Source: Plantactinospora mayteni (GTDB lineage: Bacteria > Actinomycetota > Actinomycetes > Mycobacteriales > Micromonosporaceae). From it: a DNA stretch of 64,000 nt. The notes beneath the pieces were generated by a model. The model saw only the letters and a list, made by a program, of their open reading frames with translations. It made no database searches and was not told where the DNA came from. The DNA is taken from the NCBI RefSeq assembly GCF_016862935.1, contig NZ_BONX01000007.1, positions 186,001 through 250,000 of the forward strand, read 5' to 3'. A program made the translations under genes and the position numbers. Below, one piece after another: positions 7,819 through 55,652 of this stretch. Within the stretch, counting starts at the first letter, position 1; each line of letters opens with the position of its first letter.

Positions 7819-7822
7819 CCGT

Positions 7823-8620: not shown

Positions 8621-8626
8621 CGGCCC

Positions 8627-9529: not shown

Positions 9530-10500
9530 CTGAGCGCCTCGGTCGGTTGCCAGACGCTGCCCTGCACGCCCCGGAACGAGCCGGCCGGCGGTGTGACGCC
9601 GTGCTCCTCGCACCACCGGCCCGGCGGCTGCTCGGCGGCGCGGGGTCGCCCGTCGGAGGGGGCGAGCTGCAACGGGATCGGCGGCAGCGGCGGCAGCTCC
9701 ACCCCCGCCTCGGCCTCGGCCCGCAACTCGTCGGAGTCCTTCTCCTCGGCCATCCCGATCGGGCCGATCCGCTGCGCGTTGAGGAACTGCCGGACGACCG
9801 GCTCGGTGCTGGAGAGCAGCATCTCGCGCGGCCCGAACATCGCCAGGTGGCCGTGGTAGATCAGCCCGATGTTGTCCGGCACCGTACGGGCGGTGTTGAT
9901 GTCGTGCGTGACGATCAGGAACGTCGCCCCGGTCTGCTGGTTGAGGTCGATGATGAGCTGGTTGAGATAGGCGGTGCGGACCGGGTCGAGCCCGGAGTCC
10001 GGCTCGTCGAAGAGGATGATCCGCGGGTCCAGCACCAGGGCCCGGGCCAGCCCGGCGCGCTTGCGCATCCCGCCGGAGATCTCGCCCGGCAGCTTCCGTT
10101 CGGCGCCGAGCAGCCCGACCATCTCCAGCTTCTCGTGCACCACCGCCCTGACCTCGGACTCCGACTTGCGGGTGTGCTCGCGCAGCGGAAAGGCGACGTT
10201 GTCGTAGATGTTCATCGAGCCGAACAACGCGCCGTCCTGGAACAGCACACCGAAGAGCTTGCGGACCTCGTAGAGGGCGCGTTCGGAGAGCCGGGGCAGG
10301 TCCTGGCCCTCGATCCAGATCGCCCCACGATCCGGCTTCAGCAGCCCGACCAGCGTCTTGAGGAACACCGACTTGCCGGTGCCGGACGGGCCGAGCAACA
10401 CCGAGATCTCGCCCGCCGGCAGGGTCAGACTGACGTCGGACCAGACAGGTTGCCCGCCGAAGGACTTCGTCAGCCCCTCGACCCGTACCTCGACGCCCAT
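9526..10500 (-). CDS. mceG: Mce system ATP-binding protein (MceG/Mkl type)
   Basis: This ATPase drives lipid uptake by the YrbE/MCE complex. From ATG 10500 it has 324 residues: Walker A GPSGTGKS at 37-44, the signature ISGGMRKR at about 141-148, Walker B IILFDE at 161-166, and the switch histidine in IVTHD. The segment GVLFQDGALFGSMNIYDNVAFPLREHT and the tail motif QFLNAQRIGPIGMAEEKD are characteristic of mycobacterial Mkl/MceG. After the ATPase core comes a roughly 60-residue tail. It is the first gene of the operon. In mycobacteria a single unlinked mceG serves several operons, whereas here it is built into the operon. An in-frame ATG at 10563 is an alternative start, and no strong ribosome site decides between them. 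Confidence 0.92.
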   Translation of the reverse strand: MGVEVRVEGLTKSFGGQPVWSDVSLTLPAGEISVLLGPSGTGKSVFLKTLVGLLKPDRGAIWIEGQDLPRLSERALYEVRKLFGVLFQDGALFGSMNIYDNVAFPLREHTRKSESEVRAVVHEKLEMVGLLGAERKLPGEISGGMRKRAGLARALVLDPRIILFDEPDSGLDPVRTAYLNQLIIDLNQQTGATFLIVTHDINTARTVPDNIGLIYHGHLAMFGPREMLLSSTEPVVRQFLNAQRIGPIGMAEEKDSDELRAEAEAGVELPPLPPIPLQLAPSDGRPRAAEQPPGRWCEEHGVTPPAGSFRGVQGSVWQPTEALR

Positions 10501-10776
10501 CCGCGCACCCGCCCGCCGCAGCTCCCGGTGGACCGTCCGTCCACCGCCGTCTCTGGTGGACATCGCGCCGGGCACCCCGCGCGTAACAGCGATGGCCGGT
10601 AATTCTTCGACCACTTTCCGTGGGTACGACGCCGAGGTGTCCCGCCGCCGCGTCGGCGAACCGGCCCCCGCCGGTGGTGCGATCCGGCGGCTCCCGCTAC
10701 GGTGCGGTTAACCCGCCGGTAACCCAGGCGTGGTGCCGGACGAAGGTGTGGCCCCGACGAAGGTGCGACCGCATAC

Positions 10777-11355
10777 ATGACCGCAGCACCCGAGACAGAT
10801 CTCGTCGCACGCGCGGCTCGACGCGACCCCGAGGCGACGGCGGCCCTGCTCACCGAGGTCCGCCCCGGTCTGGTCCGATACTGCCGGGCCCGGCTCGGCC
10901 GGATCGGCGGCGCGTACGCCACCGCCGACGACGTGGCCCAGGAGGTCTGTCTGGCGGTACTCCGGGCGCTGCCCCGCTATCGGGACCAGGGCCGGCCGTT
11001 CTCCGCCTTCCTCTACACCATCGCCGCGCACAAGGTCGCCGACGCGCAGCGGGCCGCCATCCGCGACTCGGCCGCCACCATCGACGGTCCGCTGCCGGAC
11101 GAGCCGGACGCCGAACCCGGTCCCGAGCAGCGGGCCGTCGCCACCGACCTGGCCCGGCGGCTCTCCGCGCTGCTGGCCCGGCTGCCCGAGGTGCACCGGG
11201 AGATCGTGCTGCTCCGGGTGGCGGTCGGCCTCACCGCCGACGAGGTCGGTCTGATCGTGGGGATGTCGGCCGCCGCGGTCCGGGTGACCCAGTCCCGCGC
11301 GCTCGCCCGGCTCCGTACGCTGGCCGGCACCGCCCTGGACGAGGTCGCCGCATGA
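10777..11355 (+). CDS. sigD: ECF RNA polymerase sigma factor, SigD/ShbA-like
   Basis: This alternative sigma factor has 192 residues. Sigma region 2 is at about residues 20-90 (RYCRARLGRIGG..ATADDVAQEVCLAVLRAL ... FLYTIAAHKVADAQR) and region 4 at about 125-180 (LPEVHREIVLLRVAVGLTADEVGLIVGMSAAAVRVTQSRALARLR). The conserved YTIAAHKVADAQR segment and the coupling to an RsdA-like protein point to the SigD (Mycobacterium)/ShbA (Streptomyces) group. It reads divergently from the mce operon. Its TGA overlaps the next ATG (ATGA). The symbol is a family-level assignment. Confidence 0.85.
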   Translation: MTAAPETDLVARAARRDPEATAALLTEVRPGLVRYCRARLGRIGGAYATADDVAQEVCLAVLRALPRYRDQGRPFSAFLYTIAAHKVADAQRAAIRDSAATIDGPLPDEPDAEPGPEQRAVATDLARRLSALLARLPEVHREIVLLRVAVGLTADEVGLIVGMSAAAVRVTQSRALARLRTLAGTALDEVAA

Positions 11356-12611
11356 GTACGCTGCGAAGCGGAGCAGAGCGAGACGACGGTACGGAAGCGC
11401 GCGGCGACGCCGTACCGGGGCGGGATGGGACGTTGACCGGCCGGGACGGCGAGTCTGGATGGGATGCCGAGCGGGAATCCGCGCGCCGGTCCCCGGACCA
11501 GCCGGACCAGCCGAACCGGCCCACCGACGACCTCGATCCGCACCTCGGTCCGACGGCCGACATCGATCCGGCCGTGGTCGCGGCGGACGACCTGCTGCTC
11601 GACACGTTGGGGCGGGCAGAGTCGGCGCCCGGTGACGACCCGCTGGCCGGGCTGCTCACCGCCTGGCGGGCGGAACTCGACGACGACCTGCCCGCGTTCG
11701 ACCTCGCCGCCGCGCTCGCCCGGACGATGCCTGGCCAGGTCGGCGAGCGCGACCACGCACCGCCCGACCCGGCGCTCGGCCGGACGGCGGCACCGTTCGC
11801 CGGATCCCGGAAGCCTCGGGCGGACGAGTCGGAGCCGGTCGACCCGATCGAGGGATCCGGCCCGGACGGCATCCGCGCACCACGTCCGGCGGTCCCCGGC
11901 CGTCGACCCCGTCCCTGTGCTTCCGCGAGCCGATCGCCGGCCGGGCGCCCCGGAACCGGCCCGTCGGACTCCGCGCGCGACGCCTTCGGTCGACCGGACA
12001 GGTCCCGCCCACCGCTGCGCCCCGGCCGGCTCGTCCGCCGACTCGTCCTGTCCAGCGTGGTCGGTGTCGTGCTGACCGCCCTGCTCGGCCTCGGCGTCAA
12101 CCACGCGGGACCGACCAGCCCGCTCTGGCCGGTCGCGGCGGCGGTCTATCCGGACCGGTCCGCGGTCCGCGCCGCCGAGCACACCATCCAGCTCGCCCGG
12201 GACGCGGTGGCGGAGCGCCGCTACGCCGAGGCACGCGCGGAACTGGATCGGGCGGCCGTCCAGGTGTCGGAGATCCGGGACCGGGCGGAGGCGGGGCGGC
12301 TGCGTACCGAGGTCGAGTGGATCCGGCGCGGACTGCCCGGTTCGGCGGACCGGTCCGAGGCGCCTACCGGCGAGCCGCCGACGTCGGTCCGGCCGGTGCC
12401 GACGACACCGGCTGCGGGGCGTACTCCTGCTCCGGCGCGTACCCCGGGCGACGCCGCACCGCCTACGGCGCGGTCCGGTCCGGCACAGCCGGCACCGGCG
12501 AGCCCATCTGACCGACAACTGCTGCCGCTACCCCTGCTGCCGTCGCTGCTGCCGTCCGGGCTGCCGCTGCTGCCCAGCGGCGGCTGTGTGCTGCTCTGCC
12601 CACCCGACTGA
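11352..12611 (+). CDS. rsdA: Anti-sigma-D factor RsdA-like membrane protein
   Basis: This is the probable partner that holds the upstream sigma factor inactive. The 419-residue protein has a cytoplasmic part with the segment PTADIDPAVVAADDLLLDTLGR at about residues 67-88, resembling the short sigma-binding region of RsdA. One membrane helix follows at about 237-256 (LVLSSVVGVVLTALLGLGV). An extracellular part has a helical segment (AEHTIQLARDAVAERRYAEARAELDRAAVQV) and a Pro/Thr-rich tail ending in Leu/Pro repeats and GGCVLLCPPD. Four-base overlap with the sigma gene supports coupled synthesis. In Mycobacterium, RsdA is removed by proteolysis to release SigD; that this happens here is inference. 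Confidence 0.75.
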   Translation: MSTLRSGAERDDGTEARGDAVPGRDGTLTGRDGESGWDAERESARRSPDQPDQPNRPTDDLDPHLGPTADIDPAVVAADDLLLDTLGRAESAPGDDPLAGLLTAWRAELDDDLPAFDLAAALARTMPGQVGERDHAPPDPALGRTAAPFAGSRKPRADESEPVDPIEGSGPDGIRAPRPAVPGRRPRPCASASRSPAGRPGTGPSDSARDAFGRPDRSRPPLRPGRLVRRLVLSSVVGVVLTALLGLGVNHAGPTSPLWPVAAAVYPDRSAVRAAEHTIQLARDAVAERRYAEARAELDRAAVQVSEIRDRAEAGRLRTEVEWIRRGLPGSADRSEAPTGEPPTSVRPVPTTPAAGRTPAPARTPGDAAPPTARSGPAQPAPASPSDRQLLPLPLLPSLLPSGLPLLPSGGCVLLCPPD

Positions 12612-12791
12612 CGCGCCCTCCGGCACGACCGGGCTCCGCTCGACGCCAGCCCTCATCGTTGACCACGTTCTGCCCAGCGGACTGACGGACCGGCCGCTCG
12701 CGGCGGGACGGATCGAGCGGCGGCGGTAGGCTGACGGACAGTGGCGGGATCGCCGCCCGACGCATCCGACGACCTGGTACGGAGGATGGCG

Positions 12792-21384: not shown

Positions 21385-22143
21385 GTGGGCAGATTCGCCG
21401 ACCGGGTCGCCGTGGTCACCGGGGCGGCCCAGGGGATCGGGGCGGCCACCGCGCGGCGGTTGGCCGCCGAGGGCGCCACCGTGGCCGTCGTGGACCTGGC
21501 CGTCGAGCGGGCGCGGCAGACCGCCGACGAGATCGTCCAGGCCGGCGGAAAGGCCAGCGGGTACGGCTGCGACGTCACCGACGGCGCGGCGGTGGCGGCC
21601 ACCTTCGACGAGGTCGTCGCGGCGTACGGCCGGCTCGACGTACTGGTGAACAACGCCGGGATCACCCGGGACAACCTGCTGTTCAAGATGCCGGCCGACG
21701 AGTGGGACGCGGTACTCACCACCAACCTGACCAGCATGTTCCACTGCTGCCAGGCGGCACAGCGGCACATGGTGCCGGCGAAGTACGGCCGGATCGTCAA
21801 CCTCAGCAGCCGCTCCGCGCTCGGCAACCGGGGCCAGGTCAACTACGCGGCGGCCAAGGCCGGGGTGCAGGGGCTCACCGCCACCCTCGCGATCGAACTC
21901 GGCCCCTTCAACATCGGCGTCAACGCGGTCGCGCCGGGCTACATCGCCACCGCGATGACCGCGGCCACCGCCGAGCGGGTCGGTGCCACCCCGGCCGAGC
22001 ACCAGAAGTACGCGGCGGAGCAGACCCCGCTGCGCCGGGTCGGCCAGCCGGAGGAGGTCGCCGCGGTGATCGCCTTCCTGGCCAGCGACGACGCCTCCTA
22101 CGTCAGCGGCCAGACGCTCTATGTCAACGGTGGTGCGCGCTAA
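21385..22143 (+). CDS. fabG: Short-chain dehydrogenase/reductase, FabG type
   Basis: This 252-residue NAD(P)-dependent 3-oxoacyl or 3-hydroxyacyl reductase has the cofactor motif TGAAQGIG near residue 13, NNAG, and the catalytic Ser/Tyr/Lys in NLSSRSALGNRGQVNYAAAKAG. It ends in the typical SGQTLYVNGG. GTG 21385 follows GAGGAG. The next genes are an acyl-CoA dehydrogenase and a MaoC hydratase, so it probably acts on an acyl-CoA in a beta-oxidation-like or branched/alicyclic acid route rather than in primary fatty acid synthesis. The exact substrate cannot be inferred. Confidence 0.88.
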   Translation: MGRFADRVAVVTGAAQGIGAATARRLAAEGATVAVVDLAVERARQTADEIVQAGGKASGYGCDVTDGAAVAATFDEVVAAYGRLDVLVNNAGITRDNLLFKMPADEWDAVLTTNLTSMFHCCQAAQRHMVPAKYGRIVNLSSRSALGNRGQVNYAAAKAGVQGLTATLAIELGPFNIGVNAVAPGYIATAMTAATAERVGATPAEHQKYAAEQTPLRRVGQPEEVAAVIAFLASDDASYVSGQTLYVNGGAR

Positions 22144-22159
22144 CTCGAGAGGAGGACGG

Positions 22160-23332
22160 ATGGACTTCTCGCTCGGTGACGAGGAACGGGCGATCCGGGA
22201 CACCGCCCGGGCCTTCATCCGCAACGAGGTGATGCCGCTGGAGCCGGAGGTACTGCGCCGGGAACGGGCCCACCAGCCCGGGCTGCACCGCGACGAACTG
22301 CGGGAACTCCAACGCAAGGCGAAGGCGTTCGGCTTCTGGGGCCTGGACACCCCGGAGGAGTACGGCGGGATGGCGCTGCCCGCCGTCACCCAGTCGCTGA
22401 TCTGGACGGAGATCGGGCGCAGCTTCGTACCGTTCCGGTTCGGCGGCGAGGCGGACAACATCCTCTTCGAGGCCGACCCGGCGCAGCGGGCGGAGTTCCT
22501 GGTCCCGACCATCGAGGGTGAGCGGGTCTCCTGTTTCGCCATCACCGAACCGGGCGCCGGCTCGGACGTGGCCAACATCCGGCTGCGGGCCCGGCGCGAC
22601 GGCGACGACTGGGTACTGAACGGCGAGAAGACATTCATCACCAACGGCAACGACGCGGACTTCGCCATCGTCGTCGCGGTGACCGACCCGGAGCGGAAGG
22701 TGCACGACGGCGGCGCGACCGCGTTCCTGGTGGACCGGGCGATGGGCTGGACGTCCGCACCCATCCAGACGATGGGGGAGGGCGGGCCAGCGTCGCTGGT
22801 ATTCGACGACGTACGCGTGCCGCACCGCAACATCCTCGGCGAGCTGGGCCAGGGCTTCAGCCTCGGCATGCGCTGGATCGGCAAGGGACGTTACCTGATC
22901 CCGTCGCACGCCCTCGGCATCGCCGAACGCGCCCTCGGGATGGCGATCGACTACGCCAACACCCGGGAGACCTTCGGCAGGCCGATCGGCGCCAACCAGG
23001 CGATCCAGTGGATGATCGCGGACTCGGAGACCGAGCTGGAGGCGGCCCGCTGGCTGGTGCTCCAGGCCGCCTGGACGGTCGACGCCGGGCGCGACTCCCG
23101 ACACGCCAGCTCGATGGCGAAGCTCTACGGCGCGGGCATGGTCAACCGGGTGGTCGACCGGGTGATGCAGATCCACGGTGGCATGGGCTACACCCGGGAG
23201 CTGCCGATCGAACGCTGGTACCGGCAGGTCCGGCTGCTGCGCATCTTCGAGGGCACGGACGAGATGCAACGACTGATCATCTCGCGGGACCTGCTCCGCG
23301 GTTACACCAAGCTCGGAGGGCACCTGGGATGA
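22160..23332 (+). CDS. Acyl-CoA dehydrogenase
   Basis: This FAD enzyme introduces a double bond next to the CoA thioester. The 390-residue protein has the three ACAD domains: helical N-terminus, beta domain with FAITEPGAGSDVANIRLRARR and GEKTFITNG, and a C-terminal helical domain with the base Glu364 in RIFEGTDEMQR. VDRVMQIHGGMGYTRELPIERWYRQVR matches short/branched-chain members. ATG 22160 follows AGAGGAGG. It sits 16 bases after fabG and overlaps maoC by four bases, so the three form one transcription unit. Confidence 0.93.
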   Translation: MDFSLGDEERAIRDTARAFIRNEVMPLEPEVLRRERAHQPGLHRDELRELQRKAKAFGFWGLDTPEEYGGMALPAVTQSLIWTEIGRSFVPFRFGGEADNILFEADPAQRAEFLVPTIEGERVSCFAITEPGAGSDVANIRLRARRDGDDWVLNGEKTFITNGNDADFAIVVAVTDPERKVHDGGATAFLVDRAMGWTSAPIQTMGEGGPASLVFDDVRVPHRNILGELGQGFSLGMRWIGKGRYLIPSHALGIAERALGMAIDYANTRETFGRPIGANQAIQWMIADSETELEAARWLVLQAAWTVDAGRDSRHASSMAKLYGAGMVNRVVDRVMQIHGGMGYTRELPIERWYRQVRLLRIFEGTDEMQRLIISRDLLRGYTKLGGHLG

Positions 23333-23799
23333 GGACGTTCGCCTCGTTGACGGAACTCGCCGGGGCGGTCGGCGAGCAGTTCGGCCCCGGCCCGTGGCAC
23401 CGGATCGAGCAGGACCGGGTGAACGCGTTCGCCGACGCGACCGGCGACCACCAGTGGATCCACGTCGACCCGGAGCGGGCGGCCACCGGCCCGTACGGCA
23501 CGACCGTCGCGCACGGTTTCCTCACCCTCTCCCTGCTGCCGGTGCTGGTACGCGACCTCTACCGGGTCGAGGGGATCCGGATGGGGATCAACTACGGGCT
23601 GAACCGGGTGCGGTTTCCGGCACCGCTGCGTACCGGTGACGCGGTCCGGGTCAGCGCCGAACTGCTCCAGGTCGATCCGGTACCCGGCGGCGGGGTGCAG
23701 GTGACCATCCGGGTCACCGTCGAGCCGGAACGGGGTGGCAAGCCGTGCTGCGTCGCCGAGACGGTCACCCGGCTCTACACGGAGGAGGAGCCCGGCTGA
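23329..23799 (+). CDS. MaoC-like (R)-enoyl-CoA hydratase
   Basis: This 156-residue hot-dog-fold protein has the hydratase-2 motif DATGDHQWIHVDPERAATGPYGTTVAHGFLTLSL, with catalytic Asp40 and His45. It would add water to the enoyl-CoA made by the neighbouring acyl-CoA dehydrogenase, and the FabG-like enzyme could oxidise the product. ATG 23329 overlaps the preceding TGA (ATGA), and the frame is open further upstream only as antisense-like sequence within the dehydrogenase gene. Confidence 0.9.
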   Translation: MRTFASLTELAGAVGEQFGPGPWHRIEQDRVNAFADATGDHQWIHVDPERAATGPYGTTVAHGFLTLSLLPVLVRDLYRVEGIRMGINYGLNRVRFPAPLRTGDAVRVSAELLQVDPVPGGGVQVTIRVTVEPERGGKPCCVAETVTRLYTEEEPG

Positions 23800-31695: not shown

Positions 31696-32547
31696 GTGAC
31701 CGCGCCAAACGACGGAGGTTACCCGGCCTTCCCGATCGACGCACCGACCTCGGCCCGGATGTACGACTACTCGTTGGGCGGCAAGGACAACTTCCCGGCG
31801 GACCGGGCGGCCGTGCAGTTCGTCAACTCGCAGTACCCGTCCAGTCTGGACGTGACCCGGGAGAACCGGCTCTTCCTCTATCGGGCGGTCCGGTTCCTGG
31901 CCCGGGACCTCGGCATCGGGCAGTTCCTCGACCTGGGCAGCGGGCTGCCGACCCAGGCGAACGTGCACCAGGTGGCGCAGCGGTTCCAGCCCGGGGCCCG
32001 GGTGGCCTACGTCGACTTCGACCCGATCGTGCTGGCGCACGGGCGTGCCCTGCTGGCCGACGACGAGACGACCCGGGTGATCGCCGCCGACGTCACCGAG
32101 CCGGAGCGGATCGTCGCCGACGAGGACGTTCGCAAGGTGATCGACTTTTCTCGGCCGGTCGCGGTGCTGCTGCTCTCGGTCACCCACTCCATCGTCGACG
32201 ACGACAAGGTCCGGCACCTGCTCGCGGTGCTGCGCGAGACGATGGCTCCGGACAGCTACCTGGGCTACTCGCAACTGGCCGGCACCGACCGGGCCGGGGT
32301 GGACGCCGGCAACGCGATGGTGAAGAAGATGGGCATCCCCTGGAAGAACCGGATGGTCGCCGAGGTGGCGGAGTTCCTCCGCGACTTCGAGCCGGTCGAG
32401 CCGGGGCTGGTCGACGTGAAGACCTGGCGTCCCGACCCGACCCAGCCGCCGCTGGCCCCGGTCGACGAGGCGCTCCGGCCCTACCTCGGCAGGGGAGCGG
32501 ACGAGACCTGGTTCTACGAGTACGGCGGCGTGCTGCGCCGGCCCTGA
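31696..32547 (+). CDS. SAM-dependent methyltransferase, DUF574 (PF04672) type
   Basis: This 283-residue protein belongs to an actinobacterial methyltransferase family recognised by the opening PTSARMYDYSLGGKDNFPADRAAV and FLYRAVRFLARDLGIGQFLDLGSGLPTQANVHQVAQ. FLDLGSG binds SAM, and VAYVDFDPIVLAHGRALL holds the acidic ribose-binding residue. The start is GTG 31696, with GGAGAG upstream. The substrate of this family is unknown; many copies occur per actinomycete genome. It stands alone, followed by a strong terminator. Confidence 0.9.
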   Translation: MTAPNDGGYPAFPIDAPTSARMYDYSLGGKDNFPADRAAVQFVNSQYPSSLDVTRENRLFLYRAVRFLARDLGIGQFLDLGSGLPTQANVHQVAQRFQPGARVAYVDFDPIVLAHGRALLADDETTRVIAADVTEPERIVADEDVRKVIDFSRPVAVLLLSVTHSIVDDDKVRHLLAVLRETMAPDSYLGYSQLAGTDRAGVDAGNAMVKKMGIPWKNRMVAEVAEFLRDFEPVEPGLVDVKTWRPDPTQPPLAPVDEALRPYLGRGADETWFYEYGGVLRRP

Positions 32548-36452: not shown

Positions 36453-36544
36453 TGAACCTTTTTCAACCTCCCCTTGCGGTCCGTCGTGGCCGTAGGCGGA
36501 AGTCGGGGCGCATGCGCCGCGCGGTTCAGGTTGAAAAAGGTTCA
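36453..36544. repeat. 92-bp palindromic element, copy 1
   Basis: TGAACCTTTTTCAACCT opens the element and its exact reverse complement closes it at 36544, with about 58 bases between. The last three bases are the stop codon of the minus-strand M23 gene. Copy 2 (43942-44033) has the same length, the same ends and a related middle (CCCCTT-CGGTCCG near the left arm, GCGCCGCGCGG before the right arm). It could be a mobile miniature element or a special 3'-end structure. Confidence 0.9.
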
Positions 36545-37480: not shown

Positions 37481-37727
37481 CGGGGGCCTTTCGGCGCAGG
37501 CGAGGCGAAAAGTTGAAGGTATTTAACCAACTGCTGGCGCTCTTGGAAAGACTTCTACATCGATGTGCGACTGTGCCGCCCCGCCGGGGTGGGTCGGAAC
37601 CGGAATGTCCGAGTAAATCTGGCTATCCGGTTATTCGGCGGCGTTGCTCGGCTTAGAGTGGCGTGGTGGCCGAGCCGGTCGCCGACTCGGCCGCCGGTCG
37701 GCGACCGGGCGGGCCACGGGGGGCCGG

Positions 37728-38834
37728 ATGAGCGACGAACTGACCAGCGACGAGCCGCTCGGCCGGCTGGAGACCGTGCACACCTTCGCCGGTGCCATGC
37801 CGACCGGGGTCACCGTCTCCCGGCAGGGTCGGATCTTCGTCAACTTCCCGCGTTGGGGAGACCAGGTCGACGCCACCGTCGCCGAGGTACGGGACGGCGC
37901 CTGCGTGCCCTATCCCGACCAGGACTGGAACGAGCCGGCCGGCGACGACGACGCCGGCGCCTTCGTCTCGGTGCAGAGCGTCGTCGTCGACCCGACCGAC
38001 CGGCTCTGGGTGCTCGACACCGGCCGCCCGAAGCTCCAGCCGACCCGCCCCGGCGGCCCGAAACTGGTCTGCGTCGACCTCGACACCGACCTGGTCACCC
38101 AGACCATCCTCTTCCCCGCCGACGTGGCGCTGCCCACCTCCTACCTCAACGACGTCCGGTTCGACCTGCGCCGCCGCTCGGCCGGGGTGGCGTTCCTGAC
38201 CGACTCGTCCAACTCCGGCCCGAACGGGATCGTCGTGGTGGACCTGGCCAGCGGGACGTCCTGGCGCCGGCTGCACGACCACCCGTCCACCAAGGCCGAA
38301 CCGCCGGGCACGTTCCGGCCGCTGGTCGAGGGGCGGCCGTTCCTGGTCTGCCCGCCCGACGGGCCGCCCAGCCCGGTCGCCACCGGCTCCGACGGGATCG
38401 CGATCTCGGCCGACGGCAGCCGCCTCTACTACTGCCCGCTCGCCTCCCGCCGGCTCTACAGCGTCTCGGCGGACGCGCTGGTCGACCGGGCGCTGGACGA
38501 CGCCGAGGTGGCGGCGACGGTCCGCGACGAGGGGGACAAGGGGTCCGGCTCCGACGGGCTGGAGAGCGACGACGCGGGCCGGCTCTATCTGACCGCGTAC
38601 GAGCAGAACGCCATCCTGCGCCGGCACCCGGACGGCCGGTTCGAGACCGTGGTACGCGATCCGCGCCTGCTCTGGCCGGACACCATGTCCGTCGGCGCCG
38701 ACCGGTACCTGTACGTGACCGCCAACCAGTACCACCGGCAGCCCGACTACTCCGGCGGGGTGGACCGGCGACGCCGCCCGTACGCCCTGTTCCGGGTCGG
38801 TATCGACGCCGGACCGGTGGCGCTGCTGCCTTGA
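37728..38834 (+). CDS. Major royal jelly/yellow-family beta-propeller protein
   Basis: This 368-residue protein has features of the MRJP/Yellow family (PF03022): GVTVSRQGRIFVNFPRWGDQ, VDPTDRLWVLDTGRP, KLVCVDLDTDLVTQTI, SYLNDVRFDLR, FLTDSSNSGPNGIVVVDLASG, DGIAISADGSRLYYCPLASRRLYSV and WPDTMSVGADRYLYVTANQ. ATG 37728 (MSDELTSDEPLG) is the start. No signal peptide is seen, unlike many family members. The fold is a six-bladed propeller; bacterial members may be lactonase-like or ligand-binding. It is not obviously linked to its neighbours. Confidence 0.85.
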   Translation: MSDELTSDEPLGRLETVHTFAGAMPTGVTVSRQGRIFVNFPRWGDQVDATVAEVRDGACVPYPDQDWNEPAGDDDAGAFVSVQSVVVDPTDRLWVLDTGRPKLQPTRPGGPKLVCVDLDTDLVTQTILFPADVALPTSYLNDVRFDLRRRSAGVAFLTDSSNSGPNGIVVVDLASGTSWRRLHDHPSTKAEPPGTFRPLVEGRPFLVCPPDGPPSPVATGSDGIAISADGSRLYYCPLASRRLYSVSADALVDRALDDAEVAATVRDEGDKGSGSDGLESDDAGRLYLTAYEQNAILRRHPDGRFETVVRDPRLLWPDTMSVGADRYLYVTANQYHRQPDYSGGVDRRRRPYALFRVGIDAGPVALLP

Positions 38835-39114: not shown

Positions 39115-39375
39115 TTGGCACAGCGAGACAGGGTGTCGACCGCCGTTCTGCGGGACCTGGCGGCGGAGATCTTCGAGGTCAACCCGGACGAGATCACCGA
39201 GGGTGCGGCCTTCTACGAAGACCTCGGGATCGACTCCGTGCAGAAGGTCGAATTCGTCGTCCGGATCGAGCGGCAGCTCGGCGTACGGCTGACCGACGAG
39301 GAGGCGGCCGGACTCCAGGACTTCGGCGACACGCTCGCCGTACTCCGGGATCGGGGCATCTCCGTTGGACCGTGA
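39115..39375 (+). CDS. Acyl carrier protein
   Basis: This 86-residue carrier protein has the phosphopantetheine site Ser41 in YEDLGIDSVQKVEFVVRIE, with a four-helix ACP layout. It carries growing acyl chains as thioesters for the ketosynthase next door. TTG 39115 is the start, eight bases after GAAGGGAG. It overlaps the ketosynthase by 11 bases. The LGIDS motif (rather than the LGADS of primary fatty acid ACPs) and the linkage to a dedicated ketosynthase pair suggest secondary metabolism. Confidence 0.93.
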   Translation: MAQRDRVSTAVLRDLAAEIFEVNPDEITEGAAFYEDLGIDSVQKVEFVVRIERQLGVRLTDEEAAGLQDFGDTLAVLRDRGISVGP

Positions 39376-40594
39376 CCGGACCCGGGCCGGCCGTCCGGCC
39401 GTGGTGGTCTCCGGGGTCGGCGCGGTCTCCGGCGCCGGCCTCGGCGCGGACGCGCTCTGGACGGCGGTGACCGAACGGCGGGTGCTGACCGGCCCGGTGA
39501 CCCGGTTCGACATGTCCCGCTATCCGGCCCGCTGCGGCGCCGAGATCCCGGCCGGCGCGGTCGCGGACCTCGACGCGATGGTGCCCGGCCACGCGTCCCT
39601 GGCCGCCCGGTTCCTCGCGGTCGCGGCGCTGGAGGCGCTCCGGCACGCCGGGGTACCGGAACGGAGCCGGGCGCACCGGTTGGGCGTCTTCGCCGGCACC
39701 GTGATGGCCACCCGGCCGATCCTGGACCAGGGGATCGGTGCGGGCCGGCTCGACGTCTCCGGTCGGGCCTGGGCCCAGCCGGACACCCTGCTCGGCACGC
39801 TCCGCGAGGTGGTCACGGTCACCGGCCCGACGGTGCTGTTCGCGCCCGGCTGTGCGGCCGGGAACAGCGCGATCGCCGCCGGCGCCCGGGCGGTCGCGGC
39901 CGGCGAGGTCGACGTTGCGGTCTGCGGCGGCGTCTCCGAACTCTCGCTGGAGATCCTCGCCATGTTCACCTCGCTGCGCGCCCTCGCCGTCGACACCGTC
40001 CGGCCGTTCGACGTCAACCGGCGCGGCACCATCCCGGGCGAGGGCGCCGGAGTGCTGGTGCTGGAACGGGCCGACCGGGTCGCGGCCCGGGGCGGCCGGC
40101 CGTTGGCCCGGCTGCTCGCCTGCGCCGCCGCGGCCGACGCGCACAACCCCACCCAGCCGCACCCGGACGGCAACGGTCTGGTCTCGACCATCCACGGCTG
40201 CCTCGACCGCGCCCGACTGACCAGCGACGACGTGGACTGGGTCTGCGCGCACGGCACCGGCACCCAGGCCAGCGACGGGATCGAGGCCCGAGCGGTGGCC
40301 AAGGCGCTGGCCGGCCGGCGCCGGCCGGTGGTCTCGTCGATCAAGGGACAGTTCGGGCACGCCGAGGGGGCCGCCGCCGCCCTGGAGGCGATCGTCGCCG
40401 TGCACGCGCTCGCCGCCGACCTGGTGCCGGGCAACGTCACGCTGATCGAACCCGACCCGGCCTGTGGCGGCATCGACCTGGTCGAGCCGACCGGCCGACG
40501 CGCCCCGGTCGGGGTCGTGCTGAGCCAGGCGTTCGGCTTCGGCGGCGGGGTCTCGACGGTACTGCTCGGAAAGGACGATCATGCCGCCGGTTGA
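39365..40594 (+). CDS. FabF-type beta-ketoacyl synthase
   Basis: This 409-residue condensing enzyme joins acyl units on the ACP. It retains the full catalytic triad: Cys163 in LFAPGCAAGNSAI, His296 in VCAHGTGTQASD and His332 in GQFGHAEGAA. The C-terminal FGFGGG gate is present. The overall pattern is of the FabF/type II PKS KS-alpha group. TTG 39365 lies inside the ACP gene end (11-base overlap), and the next gene overlaps by 14 bases, so it is translationally coupled on both sides. The product cannot be predicted: no reductase, dehydratase or cyclase gene is nearby. Confidence 0.92.
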   Translation: MDRDRTRAGRPAVVVSGVGAVSGAGLGADALWTAVTERRVLTGPVTRFDMSRYPARCGAEIPAGAVADLDAMVPGHASLAARFLAVAALEALRHAGVPERSRAHRLGVFAGTVMATRPILDQGIGAGRLDVSGRAWAQPDTLLGTLREVVTVTGPTVLFAPGCAAGNSAIAAGARAVAAGEVDVAVCGGVSELSLEILAMFTSLRALAVDTVRPFDVNRRGTIPGEGAGVLVLERADRVAARGGRPLARLLACAAAADAHNPTQPHPDGNGLVSTIHGCLDRARLTSDDVDWVCAHGTGTQASDGIEARAVAKALAGRRRPVVSSIKGQFGHAEGAAAALEAIVAVHALAADLVPGNVTLIEPDPACGGIDLVEPTGRRAPVGVVLSQAFGFGGGVSTVLLGKDDHAAG

Positions 40595-41801
40595 CGGATG
40601 GATGGTCGTACGCGGCCTGGGGCTGCGGCTGCCCGGCGTGGCCGACGTGGCGGAACTGGCCCGACTGGTCGACGGGGCACCCCTGCCACCGGCACCGGTA
40701 CGCCGCTTCGAGGCCCCGGAGACCGACCTCGGCCCGCTCGACCGGCGTACGCACGCCCCGGTCCCGCCCCGCCTCCCGGCCGCCGTCGCCGGGCGGGGAC
40801 TGCGGGTCCTGCCCCCCGAGTCCCTGCTCGCGCTGGCCGCGGCAGCCGACGCCGATGCCGCCCCGGCCGGCGAACCGCCCGACCCGTGGCTCGCGACGTC
40901 ACTGGTCGACCCCGTCGAGGCCGGTCCGGCGGCGGTGCTCTGGGCGAGTTCGACCGCGGGGCTGGCCGAGTACGGCACCATCTGCGTCGAGGCGGCCACC
41001 CTGGACCCGGGGCTGAGCAACCCGAGCATCGGTCCCGCCTCGGCGTTCAACGGACCGGCCGCGACCGTCTCCATCCGGCTCGGACTCGACGGCCCGAACG
41101 AGACGACGACCGGCGGTACGACGGCCGGACTGAGCGCACTGGTCGAGGCCGCCCGGCTGCTCGGCGACGGTGCGGCGGCCCGGGCCCTGGTCGGCGGCTC
41201 GGCGACGGTGAGCCGGTGGAGCCTGGCCGGACTCGCCGACGAGTACGTCGCGGCCGAGGGGGCGGCCTGCCTCGCGGTGTCGCCGTACCGGGACGGTGAA
41301 CCGGGTATCCGACTCGGCCGGTTCCGCCGGACCAGCCTCGACCCGTCCGACCTGGCGGCCCAGTGCCGCGCCCTGGTCCGCGCCGCCCGCCCCGCGGGAT
41401 CGGGCAGGGTGGCCGGACCGCCCGCCGGTGCACCGTCCGACCGCCGCGCGCCCGAGCGTGCCGCGCCGGTCGGCGGTACACCGGCCGGGCCGGTCGGCAC
41501 GATCGTTTCCACCGTCGACACCGAGCTGGCCGAGGCGCTCGCCGACGACGGCACCCGGCCGGTCTGGCACCTGGAGTCGTCGCTCGGCGACTTCGGGGCG
41601 GCCGGCGGCCTGCTGGCGGCGGCCTGTGCCGTCGCGTACTGCGCCAGCGCCCCGGCGCCGACGAGCCTGCTCGCGCTGGCGATCGAACCGTCCGGCAACG
41701 CAGCCATCCTGGAGGTTTCATCATGGGGAGCGCCAACCTCGTCGAGCGGCTGGTGGGGCGAGCGCTCGCGTCCGGTCGGGGCGAGCGGGTCGCGTACCTG
41801 A
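40581..41801 (+). CDS. Ketosynthase-like protein lacking catalytic residues (chain-length-factor-like)
   Basis: This 406-residue protein has the thiolase-like fold and aligns with the neighbouring ketosynthase, but every catalytic position is lost. The Cys site is Thr180 (GPNETTTGGTTAGLSAL), the first His region reads GTIVSTVDTELAEAL, and the second reads SSLGDFGAAGG. It therefore cannot condense. In type II polyketide synthases such a partner (chain length factor) forms a heterodimer with the active ketosynthase and sets product length, usually with Gln rather than Thr at the Cys site. AAAGGA precedes ATG 40581. Its last 79 bases overlap the next gene; the KS-like domain ends near AAILEVS, and the final 30 residues are probably a non-functional tail. 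Confidence 0.8.
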   Translation: MPPVDGWMVVRGLGLRLPGVADVAELARLVDGAPLPPAPVRRFEAPETDLGPLDRRTHAPVPPRLPAAVAGRGLRVLPPESLLALAAAADADAAPAGEPPDPWLATSLVDPVEAGPAAVLWASSTAGLAEYGTICVEAATLDPGLSNPSIGPASAFNGPAATVSIRLGLDGPNETTTGGTTAGLSALVEAARLLGDGAAARALVGGSATVSRWSLAGLADEYVAAEGAACLAVSPYRDGEPGIRLGRFRRTSLDPSDLAAQCRALVRAARPAGSGRVAGPPAGAPSDRRAPERAAPVGGTPAGPVGTIVSTVDTELAEALADDGTRPVWHLESSLGDFGAAGGLLAAACAVAYCASAPAPTSLLALAIEPSGNAAILEVSSWGAPTSSSGWWGERSRPVGASGSRT

Positions 41802-43918
41802 CCGGCGCGGGCGAGCGGCTCGGCTACGCGGAGCTGTACCGCGCGGTGCGGGGCTACGCGGCGCGGCTGGCCGAGGCCGGGATCGGCCCCGGCACCCGGG
41901 GACTGGTGGTGGCCGACGACGACCTGCCGACCGTGGTGGCGATCCTGGCGCTGTGGTGGCGGGGTGCGGTGGCGGTGCCGGTGAGCCCGATGCTGACCGG
42001 GGCGGAACTCGGCTTCATCGCCGAGGACTGCGCGGCCGGATTCCTGCACGCCGACGAGGCGGGCGCGGCGCGGGCGGACCAGGCCGGCCTGCGGCTGCCC
42101 CGGGGCGGGCCGGAGTGGCTGGCCCCGGGCGCACCGCCGTCACCGCCGCCGGTCAGCCAGCCGGCGTCCGAGGTGCTGTTGATCCAGTACACCTCGGGCA
42201 GCACCGGCAAGCCGAAGGGGGTGTTGCACACCGGGGCCGGCGTGACCGGGGTACTGGACGGCTTCGGCCGGCTCCTCGACCTGCGCACCGACGACCTGGT
42301 GCTCTCCACCGCCAAGCTCTCCTTCGGGTACGGCTTCGGCAACTCGCTGCTCTTCCCGCTCGCCGCCGGTGCCGGGGTACTGCTCAACCAGGGCCCACCG
42401 GACGTCTACCGGCTGGCCGCGACGATCGCCCGGTACCGCCCGACCGTGCTCTGCGCGGTGCCCCGGGTCTACGCCGCGCTGCTCGACCGGGCCGGGCAGG
42501 GTGACCCGACCGACCCGACCGGCGCCCCCGACCTCGGCTCGGTACGCCTCGCCGTCTCGGCGGGGGAGCACCTGCCGGCGTCGCTCTGTGCCGACTTCAC
42601 CGGCACCTTCGGGGTGCCGCTGGTCAACGGGCTGGGCGCGACCGAGGTACTGCACATCGTGGTGGCCACCCGGGGCAGCCAGCCCGGCTCGACCGGCACG
42701 CCGGTACCCGGCACGACGGTGACCGTCCGGGACGACGCCGGCCACCTCGTGCCGGCCGGGACGGAGGGCCGGCTGCACGTGGCGGGACCGGCGGTGGCCG
42801 CCGGATATCTGGACCGTCCCGAGTCGGCGGCGCGGACCTTCGCCGACGGCGGGGCATACACCGGGGACATCGTCCGGCAGGAGCCGGACGGGGAACTGCG
42901 CTACCTGTGCCGGCACGACGACCTGATCAACATCGGCGGTTACAAGGTCTCGCCGCTCGACGTCGAGGCGGCGGTCCGGGACCTCGGCGGGCTCGCCCAG
43001 TGCGCGGTGGTCGGCGCGCGGGACCAGGCCGGGCTGGAGCAGGCGGTCGCCTACCTGGTGCCGGCTCCCGGCGTCGACCCGGGCGCGCTGCGCCGGGCGG
43101 CCCGGGCGGCGTTCCGGGCCGGGCTGCCGCCGCACAAGCGCCCCGCCGTCGTCGAGGTGGTCGAGGCGTTGCCGACCACCTCGACCGGCAAGCTCGCCCG
43201 GTTCCAGCTTCGTGGCCGGGCCGGCGAGCCGGCGACGGTCCGGATGCGGATCCTGCGCGACGGCCCCGGCCGGACCCTGGTCTGCATCCCGTACGCGGGC
43301 GGCTCCTCCGGGGCGTTCACCCGGCTGGCCCGGCACCTGCCCAATTCGTGGCGGGTGGTGGCCGGCGAGGCGACCTACCGGGACGGCGCCACCATCGCCG
43401 ACGCGGCCCGCGCCTGGTGGCAGGCGGGCACGCCGTACCTGTCGGACGGCGCGGTCCTGTTCGGGCACAGCCTCGGTGCGGTGCTGGCCGCCGCGGTGGC
43501 CGACGCCGCCGGGGACGGGCTGGGCGGGGCCCAGGTGGTGCTCTCCGCCCCGCCGATGCTGCCCGGTGCCGAGCGGCCGGCGCTGGTCTCCGACGACGAC
43601 GAGACCCTGCTGGCCGGGCTGCGCAGCACCGGGCTGCTGCCGACCAACGCGCTCACCTCGGAGGAGATCACCCGACTGCTGCTGCCCCGGTTCCGCCGGG
43701 ACATCGCGCTCGCCCCGGACGGCTTCCAGGGGGTACGTTCCCGGGCCGTGCACCTGCTGCTCGGCACCGACGACGGGCTCTGTACCCGGGACGCGGTCAC
43801 CGCCCGGATCCCGGTCGACCGGATCGCCAGCCTGCACATGGTCCCCGGTGACCACTACTTCGTCGCCACCAACCCGGCCCGGACCGCCGAGGTGCTCGCC
43901 GGAATGTTCCAGGGCTGA
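41723..43918 (+). CDS. Fused acyl-activating ligase and thioesterase
   Basis: This 731-residue two-domain protein starts at ATG 41723, with GGAGG seven bases upstream, inside the preceding gene. Residues 1-498 form an ANL adenylate-forming enzyme: P-loop YTSGSTGKPKG (156-166), GLGATEV, YTGDIVRQEPDGELRYLCRHDDLINIGGYKVSP, and catalytic Lys488 in TTSTGK. The closest pattern is benzoate-CoA ligase-like. Residues about 510-731 form an alpha/beta hydrolase thioesterase of the type II (RifR-like) group: CIPYAGGSSGAF, nucleophile Ser581 in FGHSLGA, and a His in VPGDHYFV. One chain could therefore load a carboxylic acid starter and release or edit the product. There is no carrier domain between them, so the separate ACP must serve both. 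Confidence 0.88.
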   Translation: MGSANLVERLVGRALASGRGERVAYLTGAGERLGYAELYRAVRGYAARLAEAGIGPGTRGLVVADDDLPTVVAILALWWRGAVAVPVSPMLTGAELGFIAEDCAAGFLHADEAGAARADQAGLRLPRGGPEWLAPGAPPSPPPVSQPASEVLLIQYTSGSTGKPKGVLHTGAGVTGVLDGFGRLLDLRTDDLVLSTAKLSFGYGFGNSLLFPLAAGAGVLLNQGPPDVYRLAATIARYRPTVLCAVPRVYAALLDRAGQGDPTDPTGAPDLGSVRLAVSAGEHLPASLCADFTGTFGVPLVNGLGATEVLHIVVATRGSQPGSTGTPVPGTTVTVRDDAGHLVPAGTEGRLHVAGPAVAAGYLDRPESAARTFADGGAYTGDIVRQEPDGELRYLCRHDDLINIGGYKVSPLDVEAAVRDLGGLAQCAVVGARDQAGLEQAVAYLVPAPGVDPGALRRAARAAFRAGLPPHKRPAVVEVVEALPTTSTGKLARFQLRGRAGEPATVRMRILRDGPGRTLVCIPYAGGSSGAFTRLARHLPNSWRVVAGEATYRDGATIADAARAWWQAGTPYLSDGAVLFGHSLGAVLAAAVADAAGDGLGGAQVVLSAPPMLPGAERPALVSDDDETLLAGLRSTGLLPTNALTSEEITRLLLPRFRRDIALAPDGFQGVRSRAVHLLLGTDDGLCTRDAVTARIPVDRIASLHMVPGDHYFVATNPARTAEVLAGMFQG

Positions 43919-43941: not shown

Positions 43942-44033
43942 TGAACCTTTTTCAACCTCCCCTTCCGGTCCGACGAACCGCAAGGTCAGCGGCGGTGCGT
44001 GAGCGCCGCGCGGTCCAGGTTGAAAAAGGTTCA
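43942..44033. repeat. 92-bp palindromic element, copy 2
   Basis: It has the same 17-base perfect inverted ends as copy 1 and the same total length. It begins 23 bases after the stop of the ligase-thioesterase gene and ends on the stop codon of the minus-strand DUF4331 gene. In both copies the element is preceded by CAG and followed by G. Confidence 0.9.
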
Positions 44034-45062
44034 GCGGGCGGCGACGACGTACGGGAACTGGTCGGTGCGGGCGCCCGCGTTCTGCTGCGCGGTCAGTCCG
44101 GCGGTGGTGGCCCGGTTCAGGATCAGCGAGAACATCGTCTCCGGCGCGTTGCAGGCCAGGGTACGGCCGTTGAAACCGTTGAAGCCGTAGTTCGCCGGAG
44201 TACCGGTCCGGTACGGCAGCAGGTCCGGCAGCAGGCGGCGGGCGACCTGCTCGCCGTACCCGGGTGGGTCGAGGGAGGTGCCGTTCGCGGCCACCACCCC
44301 GGCGACGAGTTGGGCGATCCGCTCTCCGTCGGCGCGGGCGTCGGTCTCCGGGTGGCCCAGGTTGGCGCTGCTGGCCCACTCGGTGTCGACCGGCTGCCGC
44401 AGGATCGGCCAGACCATCGGGTGGCCGAAGCGGTTGACCTGGCGCCAGCCGCCCGCGTCGGTGGCGAGCTTGCTGGTGATCCAGGTGCAGATGTCGCGGC
44501 CGGTGCCGATCCGTGGATCGTCGTCGGCGATCTCCAGCACGATCGAGTGGATCGTGGTGTCGGCGAAGCTGTTCTTGGCGGCGTCCGACCGCCAGCCGGT
44601 CAGGTCCAGCCGGGCGCCGTCCTTGACCGCCGAGTCGATCGCGGCGAGCAGCGTCAGGTCGATGTAGAACGGGTCCACCGCCCGGCCCGCCCAGAGCCGC
44701 AGCCCGTTCGGGCCGGAGATCATGCTGTGGGTACGCCCCTCGGCGACCAGGTCCCCGCTCGCAGTGTCGTCCGGCGCCTCCGCACCGGTGAGCACGTGCA
44801 GCCGTACCGTCTGTTCGCCACTCTGGTCGGGCTCGTCGAAGCTGAACCGGTAGGTCAGGTTCTCCACCGTGGCACCGTCGAGGTGCACCTTGAACTCGTA
44901 CCGGGCTTCGGGGTGGAAGCCCTGCTTGGCGTCCTTGCCGGCCGCCGAGCTGTTCAGGTTCATCATCAGGACGGTCCCGCTCTCGCCCGGGAAGACGTAC
45001 TGGTCGGTCAGGTCGAGCCGGGTGTCCTGGAGGGCGAGCGGGGAGTCGAGGTGATGCGACAC
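44031..45062 (-). CDS. DUF4331-family protein
   Basis: This 343-residue protein has the DUF4331 layout: the opening MSHHLDSPLALQDTRLDLTDQYVF, NLNSSA, ARYEFKVHLDG, LRLWAGRAVDPFYIDLTLL, HSIVLEIADDD and GHPMVWPILRQ. GTG 45062 follows AGGAG. It has no signal peptide, although many relatives are secreted. Members have been loosely linked to metal or halogen chemistry and to oxidative stress, but no function is established. It stands alone; its stop codon is the end of palindromic copy 2. Confidence 0.88.
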   Translation of the reverse strand: MSHHLDSPLALQDTRLDLTDQYVFPGESGTVLMMNLNSSAAGKDAKQGFHPEARYEFKVHLDGATVENLTYRFSFDEPDQSGEQTVRLHVLTGAEAPDDTASGDLVAEGRTHSMISGPNGLRLWAGRAVDPFYIDLTLLAAIDSAVKDGARLDLTGWRSDAAKNSFADTTIHSIVLEIADDDPRIGTGRDICTWITSKLATDAGGWRQVNRFGHPMVWPILRQPVDTEWASSANLGHPETDARADGERIAQLVAGVVAANGTSLDPPGYGEQVARRLLPDLLPYRTGTPANYGFNGFNGRTLACNAPETMFSLILNRATTAGLTAQQNAGARTDQFPYVVAAR

Positions 45063-54728: not shown

Positions 54729-54741
54729 TCAGTTCGGGAAG
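54670..54741. repeat. 36-bp tandem repeat crossing the SDR stop codon
   Basis: Two copies of a 36-base unit (GCG(A/G)TGCGGTTCGGGAACGC, then GGATCAGT-CGGG; 54670-54705 and 54706-54741) differ at about four positions. The second copy includes the last codons and stop of the minus-strand SDR gene, so the gene's end lies within the repeat. Confidence 0.85.
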
Positions 54742-55652
54742 GCGTAGTCGACCCGGGTCCGGCGGACCGAGAGGTCCCAGAGTTGGCGGCCGGTCTCCGG
54801 GTCGTCGGCGTGCTCCGGCAGCCGTACCAGGCCGGGTGCGCCACGGCTCTCGCCCCGCCCGGTCGGCCCGATGTACTCGCCGCCGGTCAGTCCCGCGTGG
54901 GTGGCTGCGTAGAGCGACGGCAGGGCGGCTCGGTCGGTGCTCTGGAACAGGAAGGGCCGGAGCAGGACGTTGGCCGCCGCCAGGACGCGCGGGGCCTCCC
55001 GGGCGATCCCGGTCGGGCTCACCCCGGGGTGTGCGGCCACCGCCACGAGGCCGGTGCCGGCGGCCCGTCGGGCGAGTTCCCGGGTGAAGACGACGTTGGC
55101 GAACTTCGACATCGCGTACGCCCGCATCGGCCGGTACGTCTGCTCGCTGTCGACGTCCACCAGTTCGGCCGAGCGCCAGCGGGCGGCGATCGCGCTCACC
55201 GTGACGACCCGGGCCGCCCCGGATCTGAGCAGCGCGGGCAGCAGGTGGCCGGTGAGCGCGAAGTGCCCGAGGTGGTTGGTGCCGAAGGTCAGCTCGAACC
55301 CGTCCCGGGTGGTACGCCGCTGCGGGATGGCCATCACCCCGGCGTTGTTGAACAGCAGGTCGAGTGGTCGACCGCTGGCGAGTACGCCGGCCGCCGCCGT
55401 GCTGATCGAGTCGAGGTCGGCCAGGTCCAGCCGGCGTACCTCCAGGGAGGCGCCGGGCGTCTCGGCCCGGATCGCGGCGGCGGCCTCGGCCAGTCGGGCC
55501 TCGTCCCGACCGCCCATGATCACGGTTGCCCCGGCCCGGGCCAGCGCCCGGCAGGTCTCGTAGCCCACCCCGCTGTTCGCGCCCGTCACCAGGGCGGTCC
55601 GGCCGTCCTGCCCCGGCATGTCCGCTGCGCTCCACCCGGCTGTCCCGGCCAT
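54729..55652 (-). CDS. Short-chain dehydrogenase (retinol dehydrogenase/protochlorophyllide-reductase-like)
   Basis: This 307-residue NAD(P)-binding oxidoreductase has TGANSGVG (cofactor), LDLLFNNAGVM, the catalytic Tyr/Lys in YAMSKFANVVFTRELARR, and HPGVSPTGIAREA. The sequence is of the extended SDR type with a C-terminal helical part. I chose ATG 55652, with AGAGGTG upstream; GTG 55661 overlaps that site. The last residues (VDYAFPN) lie in a tandem repeat, so the C-terminus may vary between strains. It is divergent from a TetR gene, its probable regulator. Confidence 0.9.
   Translation of the reverse strand: MAGTAGWSAADMPGQDGRTALVTGANSGVGYETCRALARAGATVIMGGRDEARLAEAAAAIRAETPGASLEVRRLDLADLDSISTAAAGVLASGRPLDLLFNNAGVMAIPQRRTTRDGFELTFGTNHLGHFALTGHLLPALLRSGAARVVTVSAIAARWRSAELVDVDSEQTYRPMRAYAMSKFANVVFTRELARRAAGTGLVAVAAHPGVSPTGIAREAPRVLAAANVLLRPFLFQSTDRAALPSLYAATHAGLTGGEYIGPTGRGESRGAPGLVRLPEHADDPETGRQLWDLSVRRTRVDYAFPN

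Follow-up and report, generated by a model that had tools for sequence, protein, structure and literature searches.

At positions 39115-43918 of a 64,000-nucleotide stretch of the Plantactinospora mayteni genome (contig NZ_BONX01000007.1, positions 186,001 to 250,000; the whole stretch is referred to below as the window), four overlapping genes are predicted to encode an acyl carrier protein (ACP), two ketosynthase-like proteins (KSα and KSβ) and an aryl-acid ligase fused to a thioesterase (TE). The ACP gene (39115-39375, + strand) opens with TTG and specifies 86 amino acids, with the phosphopantetheine serine, Ser41, in a GIDS motif (Pfam PP-binding, 1e-11). The KSα gene (39365-40594, + strand, also with a TTG start) specifies a 409-residue protein that matches the N and C domains of the Pfam ketoacyl-synt family at 2.3e-27 and 4.1e-24 and appears from its sequence to be a catalytically intact ketosynthase. 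For the product of the KSβ gene (40581-41801, + strand, ATG start, 406 residues), a chain-length-factor (CLF)-like and putatively inactive ketosynthase, Pfam returns a weak N-domain match alone (7.1e-7). The last gene (41723-43918, + strand, ATG start, 731 residues) joins a predicted aryl-acid adenylating ligase domain (41723-43222, +, residues 1-500; AMP-binding, 5.2e-68, and AMP-binding_C, 1.7e-12) to a type II TE domain (43271-43885, +, about residues 517-721; Pfam Thioesterase, 2.4e-18). Because successive genes overlap, by 11, 14 and 79 bases, all four are probably read from a single transcript; a consensus scan returned no promoter- or terminator-like site. A sequence-only reading of the window had already described these four genes and their overlaps, and open reading frames, Pfam matches and alignments bear it out. 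Its outline of the machinery (an activating enzyme, one ACP, a KSα/KSβ pair and a fused TE) is likewise supported by the sequences, with KSα and KSβ presumably forming a heterodimer.

KSα keeps Cys163, His296, His332 and Lys327 in 14 of 14 aligned rows of the window type. The corresponding cysteine column of KSβ holds T, S, A, P or V among relatives (the window protein has Thr180), there is no HGTGT motif, and Asp337 takes the place of the second histidine in the window, with the register of the catalytic columns taken from a joint alignment of the subunits with a natural KSα-KSβ fusion (described below) that set the KSβ rows on the KSα half. An AlphaFold model of KSβ, made from the 14-row alignment (pLDDT 72.9, pTM 0.77), finds its best Protein Data Bank (PDB) match in the ishigamide KS/CLF chain 6kxe_B (TM 0.64/0.72), and the next matches are other KS and KS/CLF structures. 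By sequence and model, then, the locus holds the minimal set of a type II polyketide synthase (PKS): ACP, an apparently intact KSα and a presumably inactive KSβ of CLF-like predicted fold. KSβ also changes faster (dN/dS 0.43-0.52). Its length among relatives ranges from 294 to 469 residues by way of proline/alanine-rich stretches, and the overlap of its 3' end with the ligase gene amounts to 34-97 bases within the window's genus and to at most 4 bases elsewhere.

The acid that the ligase domain would activate is probably aromatic. Its best NCBIfam match is benz_CoA_lig (TIGR02262; 5.1e-89 and 299.3 bits, under the curated cut-off of 375.25) and its best PDB match is benzoate-CoA ligase 2v7b (4.6e-68); it stands nearer to benzoate-CoA ligases than it does to PqsA. 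The cispentacin family AmcF of NCBIfam was rejected, at 174.8 against a cut-off of 325. The residues to be considered are Q155, F201-G202-Y203, H311-I312 and K490: the window ligase reads FGYG (201-204) where benzoate ligases read FAYG, and QYTSGSTG (155-162) where they read LYSSGSTG. A paper on PqsA, the anthranilate ligase, gives its pocket residues as Q162, Y211, A278, G302 and H308, with G210 occupying the position of AuaEII T221 (PMC11253843). Judged by where the match of PqsA to L061 (an aurachin-like locus, see below) begins, PqsA Q162 falls on the Q of QYTSGSTG, and is the one position so placed; G210, Y211 and the other pocket positions are equated by motif. The pocket motifs weakly favour an aminobenzoate substrate.

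The fused TE has its nearest relatives among stand-alone type II TEs, and its PDB matches include the surfactin TE subunit 2k2q (1.6e-11) and RifR (9e-7). Its catalytic triad (Ser583, Asp684, His711) is invariant in 12 of 12 aligned rows. These 12 come from the 14 loci of the family described next; two, L035 and L036, were left out of this alignment because the TE reading frame is broken in them. The fusion to the ligase is unbroken in the same 12. The ligase-TE product of L035 has 699 residues; the identical L075 is probably the same record, hence no independent check. The break in L035 and L036 may be a sequencing error or a loss of the TE, the two being indistinguishable.

A family-wide search with KSβ yielded matches in 14 of 200 genomes and 3 of 44 genera, the P. 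mayteni genome included. Among the genomes examined, KSβ is present in all seven of Plantactinospora, all six of Phytohabitans and the single one of a third genus. Gene calls and tblastn place ACP, KSα, KSβ and ligase in the same order at all 14 loci (the window and 13 others), so that the order asked after by the sequence-only reading does recur in other genomes; the ACP and KSα genes overlap by exactly 11 bases at every one of them. All 20 gene comparisons made with five relatives give a dN/dS below 1 (0.08-0.59). Order, overlap and dN/dS together argue that the operon is not a chance assembly. Many flanking genes are also conserved within the Plantactinospora loci; at the seven loci of the other two genera the window's flanking genes are not beside the operon, their matches being distant paralogues (32-40%). 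At L036 (Phytohabitans genome G031) the four-gene core (8251-12774) adjoins a segment, L036:1-7458, that is homologous to the window block 3214-11355; the homologues are 67-90% identical, and their counterpart in the window lies ~28 kb from the operon. A class-wide KSβ search scored five candidates per genome, so that members may be missed, and found matches in 12 of 394 genomes, the P. mayteni genome again included; the other 11 are weak (8.9e-15 to 8.3e-11). All 11 were inspected, and one of them, L061, has genes for ACP, KSα, KSβ and ligase in that order within the stretch examined (only 5.7 kb in the case of L059). In a plasmid collection KSβ had no match, and KSα matched 647 records, all below 60% identity. 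Two of these KSα matches were inspected and set aside as different systems: an operon on a Rhodococcus plasmid, with genes for FabH, ACP, KS, acyl-CoA dehydrogenase and others, and a KS/chain-length-factor operon on an Azospirillum plasmid.

Where the parts of this unit have their relatives is shown by a genome scan for similar ligases, which kept 80 of at least 526 loci, with gene calls for 51 of the 80 (L072-L122). Three Streptomyces loci (L101-L103) carry UbiA-ACP-KSα-KSβ-ligase-TE, a fourth (L104) has ACP through TE and is cut by a contig end, L112 has UbiA-ACP-KSα-KSβ-ligase, and L061 and L106-L109 have polyprenyl synthase-UbiA-ACP-KSα-KSβ-ligase. All of these can be called aurachin-like by gene content as set out in the gene table of PMC10295502. 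The TE of L101-L104, which is a protein of its own, shares 33-39% identity with the fused TE of the window. Searching the plasmid collection with the L101 ligase and KSα brought up no characterised aurachin record that could be recognised among the matches listed. A ligase of the window kind occurs at 27 further loci, and at 24 of them a KS gene lies at most two genes away from it; the exceptions are L090, L097 and L111. Several loci (L093, L096, L098-L100) are manumycin-like by gene content. Near the aryl ligase of one of them, L093:4064-6253 encodes a protein of 729 residues that combines FAD_binding_3 and Oxidored_FMN domains, a pair reminiscent of 2-aminobenzoyl-CoA monooxygenase/reductase and so a hint of aminobenzoyl chemistry in such clusters.

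The nearest outside KSα found, 57% identical, is part of a protein of Streptomyces coacervatus. There, L105:7613-11527 encodes an ACP, a natural KSα-KSβ fusion of 724 residues (L105:7870-10044) and a 509-residue ligase without a TE. Before this core lies a gene for a class II DAHP (3-deoxy-D-arabino-heptulosonate 7-phosphate) synthase (Pfam 5.4e-124, and under the equivalog cut-off of NCBIfam), in keeping with an acid derived from shikimate; after it come four more KS-family genes, two genes of the short-chain dehydrogenase/reductase (SDR) or ketoreductase (KR) type and another ACP. Preceding a reducing type II PKS as it does, a core of this kind can also occupy the place of a starter module.

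A tree of 70 KSs unites the 14 KSα proteins of the window type with the S. coacervatus fusion in one group (support 100/100). With L101-L104 and L112 they make a group of 20 (100/99), in which the inner order is unsettled; L065 joins next (96/80), then the L061 group (100/98). The KSs of reducing clusters and the other own-genome KSs that were included fall apart from the window KSα. The ligase tree, of 55 sequences, sets the window-type group (100/100) within a group of 40, also at 100/100, together with the ligases of reducing clusters and of S. coacervatus; the aurachin-like ligases stand apart, and the ligase nearest to that of the window is not the one of S. coacervatus. From the two trees and the TE identities it follows that the unit is, as judged by sequence kinship, a mosaic: an aurachin-like KS pair, a ligase of the reducing-cluster type and a TE related to that of L101-L104.

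The immediate neighbours of the operon are a gene for an MRJP-like protein (37644-38834, + strand) and one for a DUF4331 protein (44031-45062, - strand); past them lie genes for an M23 peptidase and for an ABC importer of the sugar type. Our scan of the neighbourhood covered these immediate neighbours and 20 further window genes, part of the window gene set. No KR, aromatase or cyclase gene is found among the immediate neighbours, and no KR or dehydratase (DH) genes in the style of reducing PKSs stand beside the KSs. The nearest SDR gene upstream, together with acyl-CoA dehydrogenase and MaoC dehydratase genes (21385-23799), lies at a distance of 15 kb or more, the nearest one downstream (54729-55619) is ~11 kb away, and a methyltransferase is encoded at 31759-32547. 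The claim that tailoring genes are absent thus holds for the immediate neighbours and not for the window as a whole. No UbiA-type prenyltransferase gene is found among the scanned neighbours; the genome has six UbiA matches, the only one on contig C7 being ~143 kb from the operon. Directly behind the operon, at 43942-44033, lies a 92-base dispersed inverted-repeat element that recurs at 36453-36544, with the arms TGAACCTTTTTCAACCT / AGGTTGAAAAAGGTTCA. Exact-arm copies number 34 in the genome, and a reversed control pattern gave 0; the element looks like a REP- or MITE-like family (repetitive extragenic palindrome or miniature inverted-repeat transposable element).

The account that we consider probable is that the four genes make up a minimal type II PKS of the aurachin-core kind that stands alone, takes an aryl starter (an aminobenzoate) and releases an aroylacetate or a short aryl polyketide. 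What the sequences support is its foundation: the domain content, the intact KSα and inactive KSβ with its CLF-like predicted fold, the TE triad, the conserved order and the kinship. From these we infer an aryl substrate, the number of extensions, the product and the role. The ligase domain would adenylate an aromatic acid, which is most likely one of the aminobenzoates, perhaps anthranilate; transfer of the activated acid to the ACP would be either direct or by way of CoA. The KSα/KSβ heterodimer would then carry out one or two condensations with malonyl units, the malonyl transferase being borrowed from fatty acid synthesis, and the fused TE would hydrolyse or cyclise off the aroylacetate or short aryl polyketide. 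Were the acid anthranilate, the outcome would be either 2-aminobenzoylacetate, along with the compounds that form from it spontaneously, or 2-methyl-4-quinolone, and no prenylation would follow.

Several observations weigh against this account or parts of it. The motif evidence for an aminobenzoate is weak because FGYG is general among such ligases and because both motifs served as search patterns of the ligase scan (FGYGFGNS and IQYTSGSTG). Since the ligase lies in the reducing-cluster clade, an anthranilate substrate does not follow from its kinship, and no gene for making an aryl acid is found beside the operon among the genes scanned. The kinship with the rau, sau and aua systems runs through uncharacterised loci chosen as proxies by gene content, and the KSα tree gave a long-branch warning, L112 included, along with its unsettled inner order. 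According to PMC10295502, the aurachin clusters of Stigmatella and Rhodococcus themselves have only three homologous genes. Finally, the TE frame is broken in 2 of the 14 loci, both of them among the six Phytohabitans genomes.

That last point bears on what the TE does. It may be an editing type II enzyme that clears wrong acyl groups, with release left to spontaneous cyclisation; this is a tentative possibility, to which its nearness to stand-alone type II TEs lends substance, as do the broken frames of L035 and L036, where the other genes stay open. A precedent is EncL, which edits in the benzoate-primed enterocin system, as noted in a review (PMC12664062). Against a merely editing role stand the unbroken fusion and invariant triad at the remaining 12 loci, and no other release enzyme is encoded beside the operon. 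The fused TE speaks for release, and for that same reason it speaks against a different suggestion, made in part by the sequence-only reading, that the operon supplies an aroyl or aroylacetyl starter in trans to another PKS of the same genome, for instance a reducing type II PKS. The S. coacervatus arrangement, in which ACP, KSα-KSβ fusion and ligase directly precede more KS and SDR/KR-type genes, offers a parallel, but its ligase has no TE. P. mayteni does possess a candidate recipient, a locus (L042; G000:C2:372001-392000) with several KS genes, ACPs and SDR/KR, FabA-type and DsbA-type genes, one KS of which is 95-98% identical in four other genomes of the genus and 75% identical in one Phytohabitans; in 8 of the 14 genomes with the unit, however, that KS has no counterpart reaching 75% identity. 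We hold starter supply to be unlikely.

That the four genes are a fragment of an ordinary fatty-acid or aromatic type II PKS, or the remains of a decaying cluster, is strongly disfavoured and would be most surprising. The weak family scores of KSβ, its dN/dS of 0.43-0.52 and the two broken TE frames are what one might expect of such a fragment, but neither the separation of KSα from reducing-cluster KSs and the included own-genome KSs, nor an order kept at 14 of 14 loci, nor dN/dS below 1 in all 20 comparisons is easily reconciled with it.

A set in which all four steps (activating, carrying, condensing and releasing) stand alone is unlike type II PKSs as they are usually read, namely as portions of large clusters. 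Its presence in all 14 examined genomes of the three genera, unusual for specialised metabolism, suggests a basic role. A bolder proposal, speculative and in our estimation rather doubtful, is that the unit belongs to the core traits of Plantactinospora and Phytohabitans and is the type II PKS equivalent of PqsA-PqsD-PqsE, complete in itself. It would convert an aminobenzoate to a small metabolite, quinolone-like or an aroylacetate, that serves the cell in housekeeping (as a signal, a redox compound or an iron binder), and it would also be a module whose parts, through exchange of ligase, KS pair and TE, gave rise to aurachin-like cores and aryl-primed reducing PKSs. The stand-alone aryl-primed PKS that we favour would in any case offer a clean four-protein system for the study of aryl starter loading and of KSα/KSβ control of the number of extensions, for which the natural S. 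coacervatus fusion would serve as a single-chain version for structural work. In the 2023 catalogue of type II PKS clusters the aurachin cluster set the similarity cut-off (PMC10132072); such distant sets may consequently have been missed there.

How the operon compares with known systems can now be stated. An aromatic type II PKS was rejected for want of KR, aromatase or cyclase genes beside the minimal set, an aryl polyene or reducing type II PKS for want of KR/DH genes beside the KSs and for a KSα outside those clades; a fatty acid KS pair and decaying genes were also considered and rejected. The titles and abstract openings listed for polyketides of Plantactinospora, Phytohabitans and S. 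coacervatus do not describe the operon, and in the available parts of the manumycin (PMC8000086) and limocrocin (PMC11727611) papers no aryl ligase is placed with the KS genes. Reducing type II PKS clusters have ligases of the window's clade, 47-59% identical, but their KSs belong to other clades and, at the loci inspected, they include more KS and SDR/KR-type genes. The S. coacervatus core resembles the window in having the nearest outside KSα together with KSβ, ACP and ligase; it differs in that its KSα and KSβ are one protein, its ligase is TE-less and it is embedded before KS and SDR/KR-type genes. With PqsA-PqsD-PqsE the likeness is one of outline (an anthranilate ligase, malonyl condensation and a thioesterase, with pocket residues at matching motifs). 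PqsD is a FabH-type KS and PqsE a metallo-hydrolase, so that these two are not homologous to the corresponding parts of the window.

The closest comparison is with the aurachin systems, RauC-RauF of Rhodococcus erythropolis JCM 6824, SauB-SauE with SauK of Streptomyces sp. NA04227 and AuaB-AuaE/AuaEII of Stigmatella aurantiaca. In the gene table of PMC10295502, rauC-D-E-F and sauB-C-D-E each comprise an ACP gene, a pair of KS genes and the gene for an aryl ligase; the sau cluster has a TE gene as well, sauK. The sequence-only reading had held that the operon matched no cluster kind known to it, and this cannot stand: ACP, KSα, KSβ and aryl-acid ligase follow one another in the same order in aurachin cores, and the phylogeny of the window KSα puts it within the supported group of UbiA-linked, aurachin-like loci. 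The window differs from them in having no adjoining prenyltransferase, isoprenoid or oxygenase gene, in the fusion of its TE to the ligase and in a ligase of another clade; against the aurachin-like proxy loci its KSα is 36-46% and its ligase 37-45% identical. By gene order and KS kinship the operon is thus an aurachin-type core, yet, with no prenyltransferase beside it and its ligase in another clade, it is not an aurachin cluster.

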